A stretch of 26,096 bases of DNA from a virus, in IMG/VR virus record IMGVR_UViG_3300027805_000077, positions 1-26,096 of that record. One strand, written 5' to 3'. Position numbers and translations under genes: made by a program. Each line of letters begins with the position of its first letter. The stretch's first letter is position 1. The notes under the pieces were generated by a model. The model made no database searches and was not told the DNA's origin. It saw only the letters and a program-made list of their open reading frames with translations. This document shows positions 8,267 through 25,841 of the stretch, one piece after another.

Positions 8267-8598
8267 TGCACAGCCAAAACGGACACGACAAGCATACGCA
8301 TTGCCCGTTCTGGGATGAGTGGCGTGAGCACAAATCCAGGGCGCTCGAGACGGTCGGACGCGTTGAGGCGATAGAAGCAACACTTGTGCGCGTAGCCGAA
8401 AACCTCAACCACCTGGCAACCCTGCCGGCAATCCTCGACCGCCTCGTTGAATCGGCTACCGGGCGCGACCATGTACCAACGCGGGTTGTGCTCCTCATCG
8501 TTGGCGCGATGAGCGGCGTGGTCCTTGGCCTTGTGTTCGTTGTTGTGTTCCTTCTTACCGGCGAAAGCGCCGGGTGGATAAACTCGTTGCATAGGTAG
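8263..8598 (+). CDS. Coiled-coil protein with C-terminal membrane anchor (XhlA-like topology)
   Basis: 111 residues; ATG overlaps the upstream TGA (ATGATG; a second ATG at 8266 is also possible). Residues ~24-65 form an amphipathic helix with heptad-like Leu/Val/Ala spacing (VGRVEAIEATLVRVAENLNHL), and residues ~75-99 are one strongly hydrophobic transmembrane segment followed by a short tail. The N-terminus has His/Cys residues (HDKHTHCPFW) that could bind metal. A coiled coil plus single C-terminal anchor is the layout of XhlA-type haemolysin/holin helper proteins, and the next gene is a holin-like protein, so a lysis role is plausible. An alternative is an unrelated membrane-anchored accessory protein. 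Confidence 0.55.
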   Translation: MMHSQNGHDKHTHCPFWDEWREHKSRALETVGRVEAIEATLVRVAENLNHLATLPAILDRLVESATGRDHVPTRVVLLIVGAMSGVVLGLVFVVVFLLTGESAGWINSLHR

Positions 8599-8602
8599 AA
8601 AT

Positions 8603-8815
8603 ATGAATACAAAACCTTTGATTGCATCCAAATCATTCTGGGGAGCGTTGATCGCCCTCCTCCCTGCCGCATCTGACACCGTACAGCAGCTTTTAGGCTC
8701 GGGTTTCCTACCGCCCCAGGTCACACCATGGCTCGCAGGTGCGGGCGCGTTGTTGGCGCTCCTAGGGCGCGTTACAGCGACCTCGCAAATCAGTGGGGTG
8801 TTGAGCTCTAAGTAG
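8603..8815 (+). CDS. Probable holin
   Basis: 70 residues. Two hydrophobic segments (about residues 12-22 and 41-54) are separated by a short polar loop with a Pro pair, and the end reads GRVTATSQISGVLSSK. The SKSFWGALIALL opening and the GRVTAT close recur in small phage holin-like proteins encoded next to lysis genes. The start ATG at 8603 has a modest GGTAGAA upstream. The TAG stop is immediately followed by the ATG of the nuclease gene. It would form the inner-membrane lesion at the end of infection. No canonical endolysin lies beside it on this strand. Confidence 0.6.
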   Translation: MNTKPLIASKSFWGALIALLPAASDTVQQLLGSGFLPPQVTPWLAGAGALLALLGRVTATSQISGVLSSK

Positions 8816-9088
8816 ATGCGCCGCGCCGCTCGAGTCGATGCCAACCACAAAGAGATCGCCGACGGCTTGCGTGCCGTTGGGCGGTCGGTGTTGTCGCTCC
8901 ATCGGCTCGGGCAGGATGCGCCGGATCTCCTCGTCGGGAACGGGGATCACAACATCCTCGTTGAAGTTAAAACCGCACGGGGTAAACTGTCCGACGGGCA
9001 GAAGGCGTTTTTCGAGTGGTGGCGCGGTCCTCGAGCGGTTGTGCGCAGCCTCGAGGAGGCGATAGAGGCGACCTCACCCAAGCACTGA
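8816..9088 (+). CDS. PD-(D/E)XK nuclease (VRR-NUC-like)
   Basis: 90 residues starting directly after the holin stop. The full motif set is visible: Glu13 in an N-terminal helix (NHKEIADGLRAVG), Asp37 in APDLLVG, and Glu50-Val-Lys52 in ILVEVKTARG, followed by SDGQKAFFEWW and a final VVRSLEEAIE. This is the compact VRR-NUC/Holliday-resolvase-like arrangement seen in many phages, acting on branched or damaged DNA; a role in resolving replicative or packaging intermediates is inferred. Its UGA stop is formed by the first three nucleotides of the downstream tRNA, so RNase P cleavage of a shared transcript would remove the stop codon from the mRNA. Confidence 0.85.
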   Translation: MRRAARVDANHKEIADGLRAVGRSVLSLHRLGQDAPDLLVGNGDHNILVEVKTARGKLSDGQKAFFEWWRGPRAVVRSLEEAIEATSPKH

Positions 9089-9161
9089 TCGGTAATTCAA
9101 TCGGTAGAATGGGCGGCTGTTAACCGCCTCGTTGCAGGTTCGAGCCCTGCCCGATCAGCCA
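9086..9161 (+). tRNA. tRNA-Asn (anticodon GUU), CCA encoded
   Basis: The cloverleaf can be built by hand: acceptor TGATCGG (9086-9092) pairs fully with CCGATCA (9151-9157); D stem ATTC/GAAT (9095-9098, 9107-9110) around a GG-containing loop; anticodon stem GGCGG/CCGCC (9112-9116, 9124-9128) with loop CTGTTAA, anticodon GTT at 9119-9121; T stem GCAGG/CCTGC with loop TTCGAGC; discriminator G9158 and encoded CCA 9159-9161. The U1-A72 pair and G73 fit bacterial tRNA-Asn. It overlaps the stop codon of the upstream nuclease and the 3' end of the convergent HNH gene. It may supplement host Asn decoding. Confidence 0.95.
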
Positions 9162-9613
9162 TCTTTTAGGTCAATTAGGTTTGCTGTGCGGTCTAGTACC
9201 TCCTTCACAACCTGAGGATGCCACTTGCTCTTGCCTGTCTTGGTAGCCACTCCCCTGCTGTTCAGGAGCTCCACAATCTCTCTCAGGGAGTTTCCCTGCT
9301 GTCTCAGGGAGTGCATGACCTTGAGAACCTCATACTCTCCTGGCTGAGGTATAAGCCTCACACCATCGACAAGCTCGAACCCGAAGGGAACTGTCCCTCC
9401 GGTGTGCTCACCCTTGGCTCTCTTGTGACTCAAAGCCTCTTTGGTCAATTCGGATACGCGCCAATTCACAACCTCACCATGCGCGCGCGCATGGCAAGAT
9501 CCACACAAAGGCACGGTAGCGGTGCCGCCGAGACTGCGCGGAATTACATGATGAGAAAAAGTAGCTACTGCGCCGCACTCAAAACAAACGCGATGAGGTT
9601 TGCATTGCTTCAC
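9155..9613 (-). CDS. HNH endonuclease fused to a recombinase-like DNA-binding domain
   Basis: 152 residues from a GTG at 9613 with GGAGG just upstream; the GTG overlaps the stop of the DUF551 gene (GTGA). Residues 4-46 form an HNH-type zinc module: C10xxC13, H21-H22 with VIPRSLGG, then PLC37xxC40H41...H45; the usual Asn of the motif appears replaced by Thr33. Residues ~66-146 resemble the 'Recombinase' domain of large serine recombinases: GGTVPFGFELVDGVRLIP, then a helical part with LNSRGVATKTGKSKWHPQVV. The serine catalytic domain is absent. This suggests a site-directed nuclease, perhaps a free-standing homing-type enzyme. Its stop codon lies in the tRNA 3' acceptor strand. Confidence 0.75.
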   Translation of the reverse strand: MKQCKPHRVCFECGAVATFSHHVIPRSLGGTATVPLCGSCHARAHGEVVNWRVSELTKEALSHKRAKGEHTGGTVPFGFELVDGVRLIPQPGEYEVLKVMHSLRQQGNSLREIVELLNSRGVATKTGKSKWHPQVVKEVLDRTANLIDLKDG

Positions 9614-9813
9614 TTTTCCTCCGTCGGCGGCTCAGGCAACGGTTGCCAATGCGTCGGAGTTGAGCGGTAAAGCTCGTCCAACGTCCAATGCCCGATCCCC
9701 ATTTCGCCTTTATGGAAATATTCTGTCGTCGTCTCACCCTTACGCACAGCCAAATACCACCCCGTTGAGTCGGGGATACGCTCATCAACGCTGATCCAAG
9801 TTTCTTTATCCAT
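9610..9813 (-). CDS. DUF551 family protein
   Basis: 67 residues. It has the DUF551 outline: opening WISVDERIPD, a middle strand WYLAVRKG, and the closing HWQPLPEPP. Members are common in phages and prophages of proteobacteria and have no known function. The ATG at 9813 lies inside the end of the upstream gene, with AGGAG just before it; the TGA overlaps the GTG of the HNH gene. Co-expression with the neighbouring small proteins is likely. No catalytic residues can be assigned. Confidence 0.85.
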   Translation of the reverse strand: MDKETWISVDERIPDSTGWYLAVRKGETTTEYFHKGEMGIGHWTLDELYRSTPTHWQPLPEPPTEEK

Positions 9814-9991
9814 GTTTTAACTCCTGACAATACCGCCAAAAATCTTCCCACGAGACCAGGTGGTCCGCCGGGAAGCACATCTCCTCGCAATCGTCACAAC
9901 GTTCTTGCGTCTCACCGTTCCCACCGGCTTTCAGGTTTTGCACGCAGTCACAATCGGGACACTTCCAAAACTCATACCGCTCATCGCTCAT
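9806..9991 (-). CDS. Small zinc-ribbon-like protein
   Basis: 61 residues. Two cysteine pairs, CPDC (with a further DC) near residues 11-16 and CDDC near 32-35, followed by EEMC, suggest a single zinc knuckle or ribbon. The rest is acidic and aromatic (SWEDFWRYCQEL). The ATG overlaps the upstream TGA by four bases. Such proteins in phages may be small regulators or protein-binding modules; no specific family is recognised. Confidence 0.65.
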   Translation of the reverse strand: MSDERYEFWKCPDCDCVQNLKAGGNGETQERCDDCEEMCFPADHLVSWEDFWRYCQELKHG

Positions 9992-10968
9992 CTGAATGAC
10001 CCCCCTCGAAACGCAGGGTTTACAACCCCAAGCTCACGACCATCGACGACCAGTTTTGCCGTTGGCTTGCCGTGAAGGCGCACGGCGTTCTGCGCTATCC
10101 TGTAGCCGTACTCGTTCCAGTAGTACCGAAAACGCCCGTCATTGAACGGGAGCGCCGGTCCTGCCGTTGCCACAACCTGCCCATTATCGGCGACCAGCTC
10201 CACCTTACGGGCTTGTGGAGGCATGATAAGCACGGGTTTGTATGCTCGAGGTTCAGGGGGCGACTCGTGCCGGTCCGCGTGACTCTTCCACAGGAAGTTG
10301 CGCCGGTACTTAACCGAGCCCGCCGCGTTTTGCAGGTAGATCATCGAGTCAATGAGATCCGCGGTCGGCCATGCCTTGCGCTCCGGACGCGGTGTTTTGT
10401 CGTTGGTGTTGAGGCGTCCGTTGAAGGCCGGATGCCAAAAGTAATACACTTGCGCGCGGGCGTGCGCCGCCTTGTTCTTCTCAACGTCACCATCGACGCA
10501 CGAAATCCCGTCCCAGGAGTAGTTATACGCACCCCTCAGTGCGGCGTGGTCGCCGTGTATCTCGTTCTTAAAGCGCTTCGAGATCCCGCCCTTCCAAGGG
10601 GTATTTACGGGCGTGCAGCTTGGCGCCTCGGTTTTGACTATCTCGAGGTAAGGATCAGGGTTAGCAAGGTTGTGCTCGCAGAACGGGGAAACCTCGATCT
10701 CAACTTGCGGGAACGCGCGTTTCAAAAGCTCGCACCGCCTGGCAAGCGTGCGCACGTTGGGGATGTCACCCGCGCCGAAGTTATGCGCGTCGCTCCACAT
10801 TAGGTGCACGCGAAACAGGGGACACTTCCCCGTCTCAAGCAGCTTACGAATCGCCGGCAAGGCGTTCCCGAACGTCTCAGCAAAACAGCCCGCCGCCCAC
10901 CCTTGAGGGTGTTTTTTAACGGCAAGATCAACAAACTTTGGAAGCCCTAAATAGTCTAGTCCGTACAT
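9988..10968 (-). CDS. Unrecognised protein, possible TIM-barrel glycosidase-like fold
   Basis: 326 residues with AGAGGAGA before the ATG. The first ~220 residues alternate helices and strands ending in polar/acidic residues: FRVHLMWSDAHNF, then VEIEVSPFCEHN with a Glu at the strand end, then AYNYSWDGISCVDGD. That arrangement resembles the active-site strand ends of (beta/alpha)8 glycoside hydrolases. The last ~90 residues (KPVLIMPPQARKVELVADNG to the end) look like a beta-sandwich with RFRYYWNEYGYRI. No signal peptide. Lying across the tRNA from the holin genes, it could be a lysin or a surface-glycan enzyme, but its leftward early-strand location argues against simple late lysis. The fold call is inference. 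Confidence 0.4.
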   Translation of the reverse strand: MYGLDYLGLPKFVDLAVKKHPQGWAAGCFAETFGNALPAIRKLLETGKCPLFRVHLMWSDAHNFGAGDIPNVRTLARRCELLKRAFPQVEIEVSPFCEHNLANPDPYLEIVKTEAPSCTPVNTPWKGGISKRFKNEIHGDHAALRGAYNYSWDGISCVDGDVEKNKAAHARAQVYYFWHPAFNGRLNTNDKTPRPERKAWPTADLIDSMIYLQNAAGSVKYRRNFLWKSHADRHESPPEPRAYKPVLIMPPQARKVELVADNGQVVATAGPALPFNDGRFRYYWNEYGYRIAQNAVRLHGKPTAKLVVDGRELGVVNPAFRGGSFR

Positions 10969-15237: not shown

Positions 15238-16293
15238 TTAAAAGGTTAGCAGTTGCGCAACGTTATCCGATTGGGCGCGGCGCAGTTTGTCGTAATGCTC
15301 AAGCATAGCAATGCTCGAGTGGCGGCTAAACTTGATAACCTCCCGGTGCGGTACACCGTCCTGCAGGAGCTTGGTGATAGCGGTTGCCCTGGCGCAATGC
15401 GGGCTAAAATTCCCGGTCAAACCAACGCGGCGCATGTACATGGTAAACGCTCGGCGCACGGTGCGGTCGAGCAAAAGTTCGTTAATGGGCTTGTTGGCTT
15501 TGTACTTGGTAAACAGGGGATCGATGTCCTGCGCCCCGTCGCGCTTGCGCATCTCGAGGTATGCCCGGATATGGACGGCCGCCCAGGCGCCTACGGCCTG
15601 ATCCTCGGCACGCTGGCGCTTGGTGTTCCGTAGGGTGAGAATGAGAGCGCCTTCCTGCCCCTCTTTGACGTCGCACAGGCGCAACGCTATGGCCTCGTTT
15701 AACCGAAGCGCACCGCCAAACAGGGCAGCGAGGAGCGCCTTGTCTCGAGCACCGTCGGGTCCGTAGAAGTTAAGCTGAAACAATTCTCGAACCGCCTCGA
15801 ACGGGATGAGCTCATGCGGCCGCCTATCGTTGCCTTTGACGCGCATCATGTCGCGTTTAGGTTTGCGCCACGGGTTTGTTTGCACAGCGCCAAGGTTTAT
15901 GAGCTCGTCCCAGATGCTACACAGCACCGTGAGCTTGTGTTTGACGGTTGCCAGGCTCACCCGGTCGGAGATAAGCGAGCTCCTGCCCGGCTGTGCCGGT
16001 TGCGTGCGCAGGTAGTTGGTAAAGCGCGTCACCTCGGTATGGCCCACGCCCTTCAGTTGCTCAGCGCCCTCTTCCGTTTGCTCGATTGCAAACACGGTGC
16101 AAAATTCCTCGAGGGTTTTTCGGTATTGTCGGGCTGTGTTTTTTGATTTTAGAGCGAACCATTGATCTAGGTCGTCAAACATTCCCCACGCCTCACGCTT
16201 ATCGTTGAAACGGGTATTATTCGACGGTATGGGATTTTTGTTTCCTAGGTCGGTAGTCCTCTGAATGAGGCGCAGGTCGGGGCGGGTGTTCAT
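15238..16293 (-). CDS. int: Tyrosine recombinase / integrase
   Basis: 351 residues, ATG at 16293 with AAGGA upstream. The N-terminal part (~36-140) is a SAM-like core-binding domain (WFALKSKNTARQYRKTLEEF). The catalytic domain has the complete set: Arg197 in GALRLNEAIAL, Lys225 in NTKRQR, His299 and Arg302 in FSPHCARATAI, His325 in FSRHSSIAM and nucleophile Tyr334 in LEHYDK. Length and layout fit a phage integrase or XerC/D-like recombinase. No separate arm-binding domain of the lambda type is obvious, though ~35 extra N-terminal residues exist. It lies between the RecT gene and the replication control region and is read leftward with the early block. A role in dimer resolution instead of integration cannot be excluded. 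Confidence 0.92.
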   Translation of the reverse strand: MNTRPDLRLIQRTTDLGNKNPIPSNNTRFNDKREAWGMFDDLDQWFALKSKNTARQYRKTLEEFCTVFAIEQTEEGAEQLKGVGHTEVTRFTNYLRTQPAQPGRSSLISDRVSLATVKHKLTVLCSIWDELINLGAVQTNPWRKPKRDMMRVKGNDRRPHELIPFEAVRELFQLNFYGPDGARDKALLAALFGGALRLNEAIALRLCDVKEGQEGALILTLRNTKRQRAEDQAVGAWAAVHIRAYLEMRKRDGAQDIDPLFTKYKANKPINELLLDRTVRRAFTMYMRRVGLTGNFSPHCARATAITKLLQDGVPHREVIKFSRHSSIAMLEHYDKLRRAQSDNVAQLLTF

Positions 16294-22991: not shown

Positions 22992-23417
22992 ATGGCGAAT
23001 GCGATATACAACAAGGCAAAATATAAATGGATGGCGCCCGGCACGTTGGGCACCAGTCAGGGCGACTCTATCGACCTCCTCGACGATACGATCAAGGTCG
23101 CGTTAATTGACACCGGAACCTATACGTTTTCGCAGTCTGACGAGTATTGGTCTTCGGCATCTTCGGCAGCGGTTGGGACTCCCGTAACGCTTGCATCTAA
23201 AACGGTGACCAACAACGTATTTGACGCAGCCGATCCAACGTTCACGGCCGTTACTGGCACCACAGCCGAGGCGTTCATCATTTACAAGGACACCGGCTCG
23301 GCAGCTACGAGCCCGTTGATTTATTTCTGTGATACCGCGGCGACCGGCCTTCCGGTTACACCAAACGGCGGAGATATAGTCATCAACTTCAATGCCAGCG
23401 GAATCTTTGCACTATGA
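22992..23417 (+). CDS. Conserved beta-rich virion protein
   Basis: 141 residues; GGGAGG 11 bases before the ATG. Opening MANAIYNKAKYKW, then DTIKVALIDTGTYTFSQSDE, later VFDAADPTFTAVTG, AFIIYKDTGSAATSPLIYF and TGLPVTPNGGDIVINF. This exact order of motifs recurs in short phage structural proteins encoded near portal and capsid genes (family known to me, function mostly unassigned). A decoration or head-fibre role is inferred from position and all-beta composition. Confidence 0.7.
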   Translation: MANAIYNKAKYKWMAPGTLGTSQGDSIDLLDDTIKVALIDTGTYTFSQSDEYWSSASSAAVGTPVTLASKTVTNNVFDAADPTFTAVTGTTAEAFIIYKDTGSAATSPLIYFCDTAATGLPVTPNGGDIVINFNASGIFAL

Positions 23418-23635
23418 TCATCGAGATCGTTAATGGCACTGTTAAATATGTTTCTTCCACGGGGGATTGGGTCGCGGAGATGTCGGCAGAGGGATCTACT
23501 ATTTGTGTTTCATTTCTTTCAAACACAGGAACCCCTGAGATGTCGTCGGGAGCAAACTACGATAACCTTGTCACCTTCATTGGCGAAGTAAAAGCCGATG
23601 CTATTTCTCGCGGCGTAAACTGGAGTGGCAACTAA
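23414..23635 (+). CDS. Small hypothetical protein
   Basis: 73 residues; ATG overlaps the previous TGA and the TAA overlaps the next ATG. Beta-rich first half (IIEIVNGTVKYVSSTGDW, STICVSFLSNTG) and a short helical end. Probably a virion or assembly protein by location; no family recognised. Confidence 0.6.
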   Translation: MIIEIVNGTVKYVSSTGDWVAEMSAEGSTICVSFLSNTGTPEMSSGANYDNLVTFIGEVKADAISRGVNWSGN

Positions 23636-24483
23636 TGGCGGCAATCACTGACCTATCAGACTTGATCAACCGATTATCGGGAGGCAATAGCGGAACCCCT
23701 GAAAACATCTTTGCTTTCAAGGCGGGGCGCGTAAACGGCGTTGTGGCCACAACTCCAACCATAGGGCGGTACACATCCTTGTGGCAGTACGATGGGACGT
23801 ACGGAAACGGATCTGCTCCAGGCGCGGTGGCGGTTCCAACTAACAGCACAAGTGGAGCGTTGCCCATTACAAACCCAGGCGGTTCGAGAGAGAAATGGCT
23901 AACTCAGGTTTTTGCGACCTGCTTGGTTCCTGGCGTCTTGATGGTCTACGATAGGCTTCTGCATATCAGTGGGTTGAGTGGCGGATCAGCATTAGATCAA
24001 ACTGTTCAAGGCTCATCCCCATCAGTGACATTGACGCGAAACACCGGCGGGGTAGGTAATATCGCTTTTTATGAAATCTATAGTACCATTGGGACAACGA
24101 GTACAACGCTGACAATGACCTATACTAACAGCGCTGGAACTGGCAGCAGAACCTCGACAATAAACATCGGAGCAACGGGGTTTCGAGAATCTCAAAGAGC
24201 ACAGATCATTCCCCTTGCCGCTGGAGATAAGGGAATCCGAGCAATCGAAAAAGTAAAGCTCACAGCAACGACAGGAACGGCAGGCGATTTTGGCATCACC
24301 ATAGCACGCCCTCTTGCTTATATCCCTCTTGGCGCAGCAGGGCTGCCAGGGTGGAGAGATTTTACAACAGGACTCCCAGGGCTTCCAAAGATTGACACTA
24401 ATGCTTGCATCAGCATGTTGTTCTTGCAAAATGCGGCAACGGTTGGAGAGTTCAGCTGCGGGTTTAGTTTTGTAGAGGCGTAG
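23635..24483 (+). CDS. Virion structural protein, paralogue 1 of tandem pair
   Basis: 282 residues; TAATG overlap start. N-terminal helix (ITDLSDLINRLSGG) then a beta-rich body. Its central part aligns by eye with the next gene: DRLLHISGLSGG, LTRNTGGVGNIAFYEIYSTI, MTYTNSAGTGSRTST, IIPLAAGDKGIRAIEKVKLT and TATTGTAGDFGITI. This repeated organisation suggests a homo- or hetero-oligomeric capsid or fibre protein. GC is visibly lower and the CTCGAG motif is absent here. Location between portal and (unseen) capsid genes supports a head-associated role. Confidence 0.7.
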   Translation: MAAITDLSDLINRLSGGNSGTPENIFAFKAGRVNGVVATTPTIGRYTSLWQYDGTYGNGSAPGAVAVPTNSTSGALPITNPGGSREKWLTQVFATCLVPGVLMVYDRLLHISGLSGGSALDQTVQGSSPSVTLTRNTGGVGNIAFYEIYSTIGTTSTTLTMTYTNSAGTGSRTSTINIGATGFRESQRAQIIPLAAGDKGIRAIEKVKLTATTGTAGDFGITIARPLAYIPLGAAGLPGWRDFTTGLPGLPKIDTNACISMLFLQNAATVGEFSCGFSFVEA

Positions 24484-24484
24484 T

Positions 24485-25309
24485 ATGGCGTTTGCAGACT
24501 ACGATGCGTTCTATACGTCCCTGCAAGAGCAGAACGCGATACTTGCTCAAGTTACAACCAGCACTGCAACCAACACGCGATTGCATGATCTCTACCGCGG
24601 AGCTCTTGATGTAACCACAGGCGTTGTCCCTGCTATTCCAACGACTGCGGTAGCGCTCAGTAAATCCAATACGACCGCCCTCAACTACTACCTGCCAAAC
24701 TATAGCCCTGAATCGCCATATTTAATTGGAGCGAGATTAAACTCAGCTGGAGCACGGGGAACTTACTTTATAATTGACAGACTATCACACCAGGGCGGGT
24801 TGGACGGTACGGCAATCACGGCACAAACCACAAACCTACCAACGGCGGCTTTAACTCGTTACACCGATGGCGTGGGCGTGATCGCTGCCCTAACAATCTA
24901 TACCGCGATTGGAGCAACGGGTACAACCGTCACAGCTAGTTATACAAACCAAGCAGGTACTCCAGGGAAAACCACTGTCGCTCAAGCTATAGGGGCGAGC
25001 ACCGTAAACGCTGGTACTAGAATGGTGATTTTGCCGCTGGCAGCAGGAGACGCAGGGGTGCGGTCGGTTGAAAGTGTGACTCTAACGGCAACCACGGGAA
25101 CAATAGGCAACTTTGGAGTTACGCTCTTCAAAATACTTGGTGTTATTTGCGTCTACGATACTCAGTCACTATTCGTTGGTGACATTATTACGGGCGGATT
25201 GGCGGGTGGGATTCCTGAAATTAAGGATGACGCACACATTAGTCTTTTATTTGTAGGCGACGCTACTTCATCGTCGGGCGCTATCAGTTTGCTTATCGGC
25301 GAGGCGTAG
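24485..25309 (+). CDS. Virion structural protein, paralogue 2 of tandem pair
   Basis: 274 residues, starting one base after the paralogue's stop. N-terminal helix AFADYDAFYTSLQEQNAIL; body with FIIDRLSHQGGLDG, LTRYTDGVGVIAALTIYTAI, ASYTNQAGTPGKTT, ILPLAAGDAGVRSVESVTLT and TATTGTIGNFGVTL, matching the order in paralogue 1. The C-terminal segment ends DDAHISLLFVGDAT, parallel to TNACISMLFLQNAAT in the other copy, so homology runs to the ends. Divergence is substantial, implying distinct positions in the particle. Confidence 0.7.
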   Translation: MAFADYDAFYTSLQEQNAILAQVTTSTATNTRLHDLYRGALDVTTGVVPAIPTTAVALSKSNTTALNYYLPNYSPESPYLIGARLNSAGARGTYFIIDRLSHQGGLDGTAITAQTTNLPTAALTRYTDGVGVIAALTIYTAIGATGTTVTASYTNQAGTPGKTTVAQAIGASTVNAGTRMVILPLAAGDAGVRSVESVTLTATTGTIGNFGVTLFKILGVICVYDTQSLFVGDIITGGLAGGIPEIKDDAHISLLFVGDATSSSGAISLLIGEA

Positions 25310-25310
25310 C

Positions 25311-25841
25311 ATGTCTACGCGAAGGTTTTACGACGGGGCGCAAACTGAGATCGGAAGCTTGCCGGTCGCGGCATCGTCGCAAACTCTCACCATCACCGCG
25401 GATCTATTTACTAACGCAAACACGCTTTATTCGCCGTCGATAACCGTCGGCCCGGTCACAATCCAAGCGGCGTTTTTGTCAAATATAAGCGTCGGTTACC
25501 AGCCTTCGGTATCGACTGGCCCCGTCACAATAACCGCGACCCTGTTCACCAATACCAACGACCTGTATTTGCCGGCGGTGTACCAGCCGGGGGGCTTCCA
25601 GACCATCACGTGCGCCCTCTATACGAACGAAAGCACGTTCCCTCTTCCCGGCCTTATCAAAAGAACGTTTATCGGGTATCCGGGCGCCGTTTCGATGAAC
25701 CCGAGCCTATCGCCGCCCGTTGCTAAAACAAAACAGAAGAAGAAGCGCAGCAAAAAGGAGCTCGAGCAGCTCATGATTCGGCGACAGAAGCAGCGCGTTG
25801 AAGAGGAAGCGTTTTTTATATTCTTGAGTGAAATACTATGA
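25311..25841 (+). CDS. Virion protein with four short beta repeats and a basic tail
   Basis: 176 residues. Residues ~24-115 contain four degenerate ~23-residue repeats of the form T(I)(T/Q)A.LFTN.N.LY.P.(V/I): TITADLFTNANTLYSPSI, TIQAAFLSNISVGYQPSV, TITATLFTNTNDLYLPAV, TITCALYTNESTFPLPGL. Such repeats are seen in phage structural proteins and probably stack as beta hairpins. The C-terminus is very basic (KTKQKKKRSKKELEQLMIRR) and helical, which could contact DNA or acidic partners. The stop overlaps the next ATG. Confidence 0.7.
   Translation: MSTRRFYDGAQTEIGSLPVAASSQTLTITADLFTNANTLYSPSITVGPVTIQAAFLSNISVGYQPSVSTGPVTITATLFTNTNDLYLPAVYQPGGFQTITCALYTNESTFPLPGLIKRTFIGYPGAVSMNPSLSPPVAKTKQKKKRSKKELEQLMIRRQKQRVEEEAFFIFLSEIL

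Follow-up and report, generated by a model that had tools for sequence, protein, structure and literature searches.

The window, the whole 26,096-base stretch of viral DNA that was analysed, is a fragment: about 7.9 kb are missing when it is set against G001, the genome of a relative that is apparently circular, was closed through L003 and has a length of about 33 kb. The interval 22992-25841, which includes genes for two adjacent similar proteins (23635-24483 and 24485-25309), corresponds to a place where about 3 kb are missing in G001. ARAGORN placed a single tRNA in the 26,096-base virus record, and this tRNA lies at the meeting point of a rightward late operon and a leftward early operon. 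The features of the junction, and the integrase further downstream, are:

8816 to 9088, plus strand: small nuclease, probably of the VRR-NUC/PD-(D/E)XK type, 90 amino acids (Pfam VRR_NUC, PHROGs, invariant residues, silent changes)
9086 to 9161, plus strand: tRNA-Asn with GUU anticodon, encoded CCA, acceptor stem UGAUCGG/CCGAUCA and G73 (ARAGORN; Rfam RF00005, 61.1 bits; five compensated pairs)
9086 to 9088, plus strand: TGA stop codon of the nuclease gene, which is U1-G2-A3 of the tRNA; kept identically in relatives L004 and L005
9155 to 9613, minus strand: gene with an HNH and a serine-recombinase-like domain, 152 amino acids (Pfam, PHROGs); its GTG start overlaps the stop of a DUF551 gene
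9157 to 9155, minus strand: TGA that ends the HNH gene, complementary to tRNA nucleotides 70-72
9165 to 9609, no strand assigned: variable cargo slot from the 3' end of the tRNA to the early operon (breaks in homology; boundaries approximate, within a few bases)
15238 to 16293, minus strand: tyrosine integrase (PF00589, E = 1.7e-17; Pfam and PHROGs), found in six of eight related records

A preliminary description had placed a tRNA-Asn at 9083-9161. Both ARAGORN and Rfam recovered a cloverleaf with a GUU anticodon, conserved loops and CCA, and this is a genuine phage tRNA-Asn gene with the isotype and 3' end proposed; its start is at 9086, as 9083 includes the last sense codon of the nuclease. 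The nuclease reading frame (8816-9088) closes with CAC-TGA and the convergent frame (9155-9613) with GGC-TGA. When the coordinates of the reading frames were set against the ARAGORN and Rfam tRNA, the two overlaps in the preliminary description proved right at base level: the nuclease TGA is nucleotides 1-3 of the tRNA, and the TGA of the convergent HNH gene lies at 9157-9155 in the complementary acceptor strand. A single TGA does serve both strands, and this is true of any tRNA beginning with UGA, since nucleotides 1-3 pair with nucleotides 70-72 in every such tRNA. Because U1-G2-A3 pairs with U70-C71-A72, the HNH half of the overlap is automatic once an antisense reading frame arrives in frame. 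Since the CCA is encoded, the convergent frame and the tRNA share 7 nt.

The protein upstream of the tRNA matched Pfam VRR_NUC with E = 1.9e-4 and 21.9 bits, just under the Pfam cut-off of 23.8, and its PHROGs matches were to an endonuclease (1.5e-6) and a Holliday junction resolvase. Residues P36, D37, E50 and K52, which follow the PD-(D/E)XK pattern, were invariant in an alignment of nine sequences. Between the window and L005 the gene shows 22 silent and 2 amino-acid changes, and as silent changes far exceed amino-acid changes, the protein is under strong purifying selection. Silent changes occur freely right up to the last codon ahead of the tRNA, which is CAC in the window and CAU in L005. 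Reading frames, tRNA calls and relatives agree that a real gene upstream has its stop codon inside the tRNA.

A search of viral contigs with the nuclease identified six close relatives. In L004 and L005 the tRNA-Asn starts precisely at the nuclease TGA, and because the overlap is common to these two and the window, it is no sequencing accident. The tRNA is missing from L002 and L003, where the nuclease gene is followed by TGATCAGCC, a scar in which nucleotides 1-5 of the tRNA are fused to its 3' end across a shared GATC repeat. Loss of the tRNA in this lineage spared both the stop codon and the nuclease protein. The nuclease genes of L005, which has the tRNA, and L002, which lacks it, are 14 nt apart with no amino-acid difference, and the tRNA-bearing window and L004 lie outside this pair, at 26-29 nt. 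These silent differences place L005 and L002 as sisters. Since tRNA-bearing and tRNA-less sisters nest inside the tRNA-bearing window and L004, a single loss of the tRNA is simpler than its repeated gain, and in the simplest history the nuclease overlap would be ancestral to all four lineages, in a small sample of three tRNA-bearing lineages, a single tRNA-less one and outgroups. Conservation of the overlap in homologous phages, which the preliminary description had set as a check on its proposal, is divided: the overlap is kept in L004 and L005, whereas in L002 and L003 the tRNA is gone and the nuclease is unchanged.

In the outgroup L006 the nuclease has the same last residue (KH), followed by a TAG stop, and there is no tRNA-Asn at that position; the junction in L007 and in more distant relatives has no tRNA. 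A degenerate tRNA-like element, called by ARAGORN as Phe with anticodon aaa, was seen on the minus strand of the late/early junction of L006 (1917-1989), at a distance of about 90 nt beyond the end of the nuclease gene.

Across the three tRNA copies, five stem pairs were changed on both sides, where shuffled controls had a mean of 1.6 and slid pairings had 0, and 98.4% of stem cells were paired (1 of 63 unpaired, over the three lineages). The acceptor stem is invariant in all three copies. This would also fit extra selection on the UGA, and three sequences cannot favour either side.

The convergent protein is HNH-like at its N-terminus and resembles serine recombinases at its C-terminus, with matches to Pfam Recombinase (E = 1.3e-4), to HNH (E = 0.0044) and to the integrase family phrog_95. 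Its residues 48-148 are related to plasmid recombinases, the weak plasmid matches being serine recombinases. DNA homology between the window and L004 ends at 9170 and picks up again at 9609; with L005 it ends at 9161, the last base of the tRNA, and resumes at 9802, and with L003 it ends at 9090, at the nuclease stop codon, and resumes at 9988. The HNH gene is thus cargo of a mobile type carried by the window contig only; its place beside the 3' end of the tRNA is seen directly, and its arrival there was probably recent. We considered the HNH gene as part of a conserved device and rejected this, as it was absent from every relative and from the viral contigs and phage records searched. As the HNH partner is present in one contig only, the arrangement of two genes around the tRNA does not count as a conserved device.

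Beside the cargo slot, most relatives have a conserved 326-residue protein (9988-10968 in the window, minus strand) for which Pfam and PHROGs gave no match. The cargo gene of L003 (2641-3168, minus strand) and L002 (5667-6023) encodes an alanine/tryptophan-rich tandem repeat, the length of which differs between these near-identical phages.

The frequency of such overlaps was estimated in 118 loci fetched for any tRNA-Asn starting with U1, which together comprise 1.06 Mb and 886 distinct viral tRNAs. A same-strand reading frame of at least 60 amino acids ended within tRNA nucleotides 1-20 in 48 of the 886, a count that includes spurious frames, although 14 of the 48 exceed 150 amino acids. Nineteen of these 48 end with TAG at U8-A9-G10 (nucleotides 8-10). 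Convergent frames ended in the last 20 nt of the tRNA in 13 of 886 cases, and overlap at both sides was found in none of the 886. Frames ended within nucleotides 1-12 in 11 of 212 tRNAs, a set enriched for UGA-starting tRNA-Asn. Among 55 distinct UGA-starting viral tRNA-Asn, six have an antisense frame of at least 60 amino acids that ends in the antisense UGA, and three have a same-strand frame of at least 60 amino acids that ends at nucleotides 1-3; two of the three belong to the group of the window, and the third is L032 (IMGVR_UViG_3300031251_000459), in which the TGA of a 479-residue terminase large subunit frame (278-1791) is nucleotides 1-3 of a tRNA-Asn. The geometry in L032 is identical, but the phage is unrelated, and unlike the window it has no convergent frame of at least 60 amino acids ending in the antisense strand of the tRNA. 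Because many viral frames, including some of more than 150 amino acids, and the L032 terminase share the overlap, it is not specific to nucleases.

Taken alone, the nuclease half belongs to a class of overlap that is common and ordinary in phages; the coincidence of both halves, known in one contig, is rare. As in phage genes that stop at nucleotides 8-10 of a downstream tRNA, a same-strand frame borrows letters of the tRNA; in contrast to those, the codon U1-G2-A3 lies wholly within the acceptor stem, and UGA therefore appears on both strands. No paper describing overlaps of gene stops with tRNAs in phages was found in the literature searched.

The preliminary description had the tRNA released from the late transcript, a proposal that a separate promoter giving an unlinked tRNA transcript would contradict. 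A scan for promoters of the sigma-70 type found none in 8500-9700, and no terminator-like site was found at the junction itself; judged from sequence, both results fit a read-through late transcript. For E. coli RNase P, an A at position -2 is favourable, and pairing of the leader with the 3' RCCA over two pairs is inhibitory (PMC9433436). In the leader of the tRNA, position -2 is A and position -1 is C or U, and pairing with the 3' RCCA is limited to a single leader base at most. This context looks favourable for RNase P if the E. coli rule carries over to the phage host. The minimum-energy fold of a 136-nt stretch of the transcript was not the cloverleaf, predictions of this kind being unreliable for tRNAs.

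The overlap is a feature of a compact genome, and no test shows a regulatory switch. We favour, with a probability of about 0.72, the reading that the phage tRNA-Asn is most likely functional, possibly for lysogeny, and that genome compaction joined it to its neighbours, with the overlap incidental. The tRNA would have been fused exactly at the nuclease stop in the ancestor of the group, where the same UGA is both stop codon and nucleotides 1-3. Most likely it would be transcribed with the late genes and freed by host RNase P and 3' processing. An uncut message would yield nuclease, and a message cut at U1 would be a non-stop remnant cleared by host ribosome rescue, which is plausible as a tolerated by-product of RNase P cleavage and not as a control device. 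The antisense UGA would end the HNH gene because a gene of a mobile type was recently placed by the 3' end of the tRNA, and cargo in this position would read into the paired acceptor strand.

The tRNA may be kept either for general translation or for tRNA-dependent lysogeny. Asparagine codons make up 4.5% of late and 3.9% of early genes, with no sign of a late demand for asparagine. In the second case, the integrase would disrupt a host tRNA-Asn through a short core and the phage tRNA would replace it, the overlap again being incidental. PMC10865867 describes phage tRNAs that substitute for a host tRNA destroyed by integration, with cores of about 10 bp and related phages that lack the tRNA. 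Like Fionnbharth and other phages of this kind, the group studied here combines a tyrosine integrase with one complete tRNA, the genome being about 33 kb long, and some relatives are tRNA-less; the isotypes noted for those phages are Lys, Ile2 and Leu, and not Asn (PMC10865867). No second copy of at least 12 nt of the tRNA was found near the integrase, and there is therefore no long tRNA-type attP core at that place, whereas a core of about 10 bp would be invisible to this search. A long tRNA-type attP was also not found elsewhere in the window with five reference tRNAs, of which two, an E. coli one and a generic one, are approximate. Against the lysogeny account, no prophage was found: a search with the nuclease profile returned three distant genomes only, with no tRNA nearby in any. 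In a search for the host, the tRNA pattern occurred in 0 of 392 genomes of the phylum of L084 and in none of L084-L086. L002, moreover, lacks the tRNA and still has an integrase. We regard tRNA-dependent lysogeny, as the explanation of the tRNA, as possible but doubtful. The integrase gene of the L005 phage (L090, G004:C1:9597-10643) contains one in-frame TAG, and may be broken or misassembled.

The tRNA could itself be the attP core for a host tRNA-Asn, and as a tRNA merely a by-product of attachment. In lambda-like maps attP sits at the late/early junction, as the tRNA does here; the window and L005 differ at a single position in nucleotides 46-76, against a variable 5' half, and the cargo differs at the 3' end of the tRNA. 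However, the tRNA is complete and has phage genes on either side in three contigs, the integrase is 6 kb away, and L002 has no tRNA although its integrase is 73% identical, which makes this account improbable. We give an equally slight chance to the tRNA being mainly a processing or boundary element between convergent operons that takes no part in translation. Its position between convergent genes, the lack of a terminator-like site there and the tRNA-like element at the same junction of L006, on the opposite strand, would suit such a role. The conserved anticodon, the compensated stems and the retention of every tRNA landmark argue against it, as does the same gene order in lineages without the tRNA.

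The preliminary description had gone further, proposing that RNase P release of the tRNA competes with translation of the nuclease, and that the resulting non-stop messages and their tmRNA tagging limit its synthesis. That a cut before U1 removes the nuclease stop follows from the anatomy; a limit on nuclease synthesis has no support, because the nuclease can do without the overlap, the tRNA-less L002 encoding the same protein as L005. Preservation of the exact overlap in three lineages and the good RNase P context of the leader (PMC9433436) speak for the competition, and the UGA may be selected, as UGA-first tRNA-Asn are uncommon (2 of about 120 matches listed for U1-starting phage tRNA-Asn). 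On the other side, the unrelated L032 has the same arrangement on a terminase frame, stops within tRNA 5' ends are common, and silent changes in the nuclease gene reach its last codon. Any tRNA, moreover, would also be kept from folding by a ribosome halted at a stop a few nucleotides ahead of it, which leaves loss of the stop as the one effect specific to the overlap. Competition that limits the nuclease is unlikely on this evidence, and a UGA selected as a switch tying late nuclease output to tRNA processing and host ribosome rescue is less likely still.

The arrangement resembles the tRNA punctuation of animal mitochondria, in which tRNAs abut or overlap stop codons and excision would remove the stop (PMC4624183, PMC6847864). 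Mitochondria restore UAA by polyadenylation, whereas the phage remnant in its bacterial host would stay non-stop, the phage case being read from sequence. A stop codon restored by polyadenylation is not expected in bacteria. In E. coli, Mohanty and Kushner reportedly described in 2008 a secG-leuU transcript of mRNA and tRNA that is processed by RNase P, and in the phage, too, a protein gene and a tRNA would share one transcript.

Software for annotation should not trim the ends of phage reading frames off tRNAs. If the switch were true, bacteria would have at this locus their own equivalent of mitochondrial tRNA punctuation, with a stop codon destroyed on purpose. The sister phages, of which some have the tRNA and others lack it while the gene ahead of it is otherwise unchanged, are a clean natural experiment, in which the cost of the overlap is testable.
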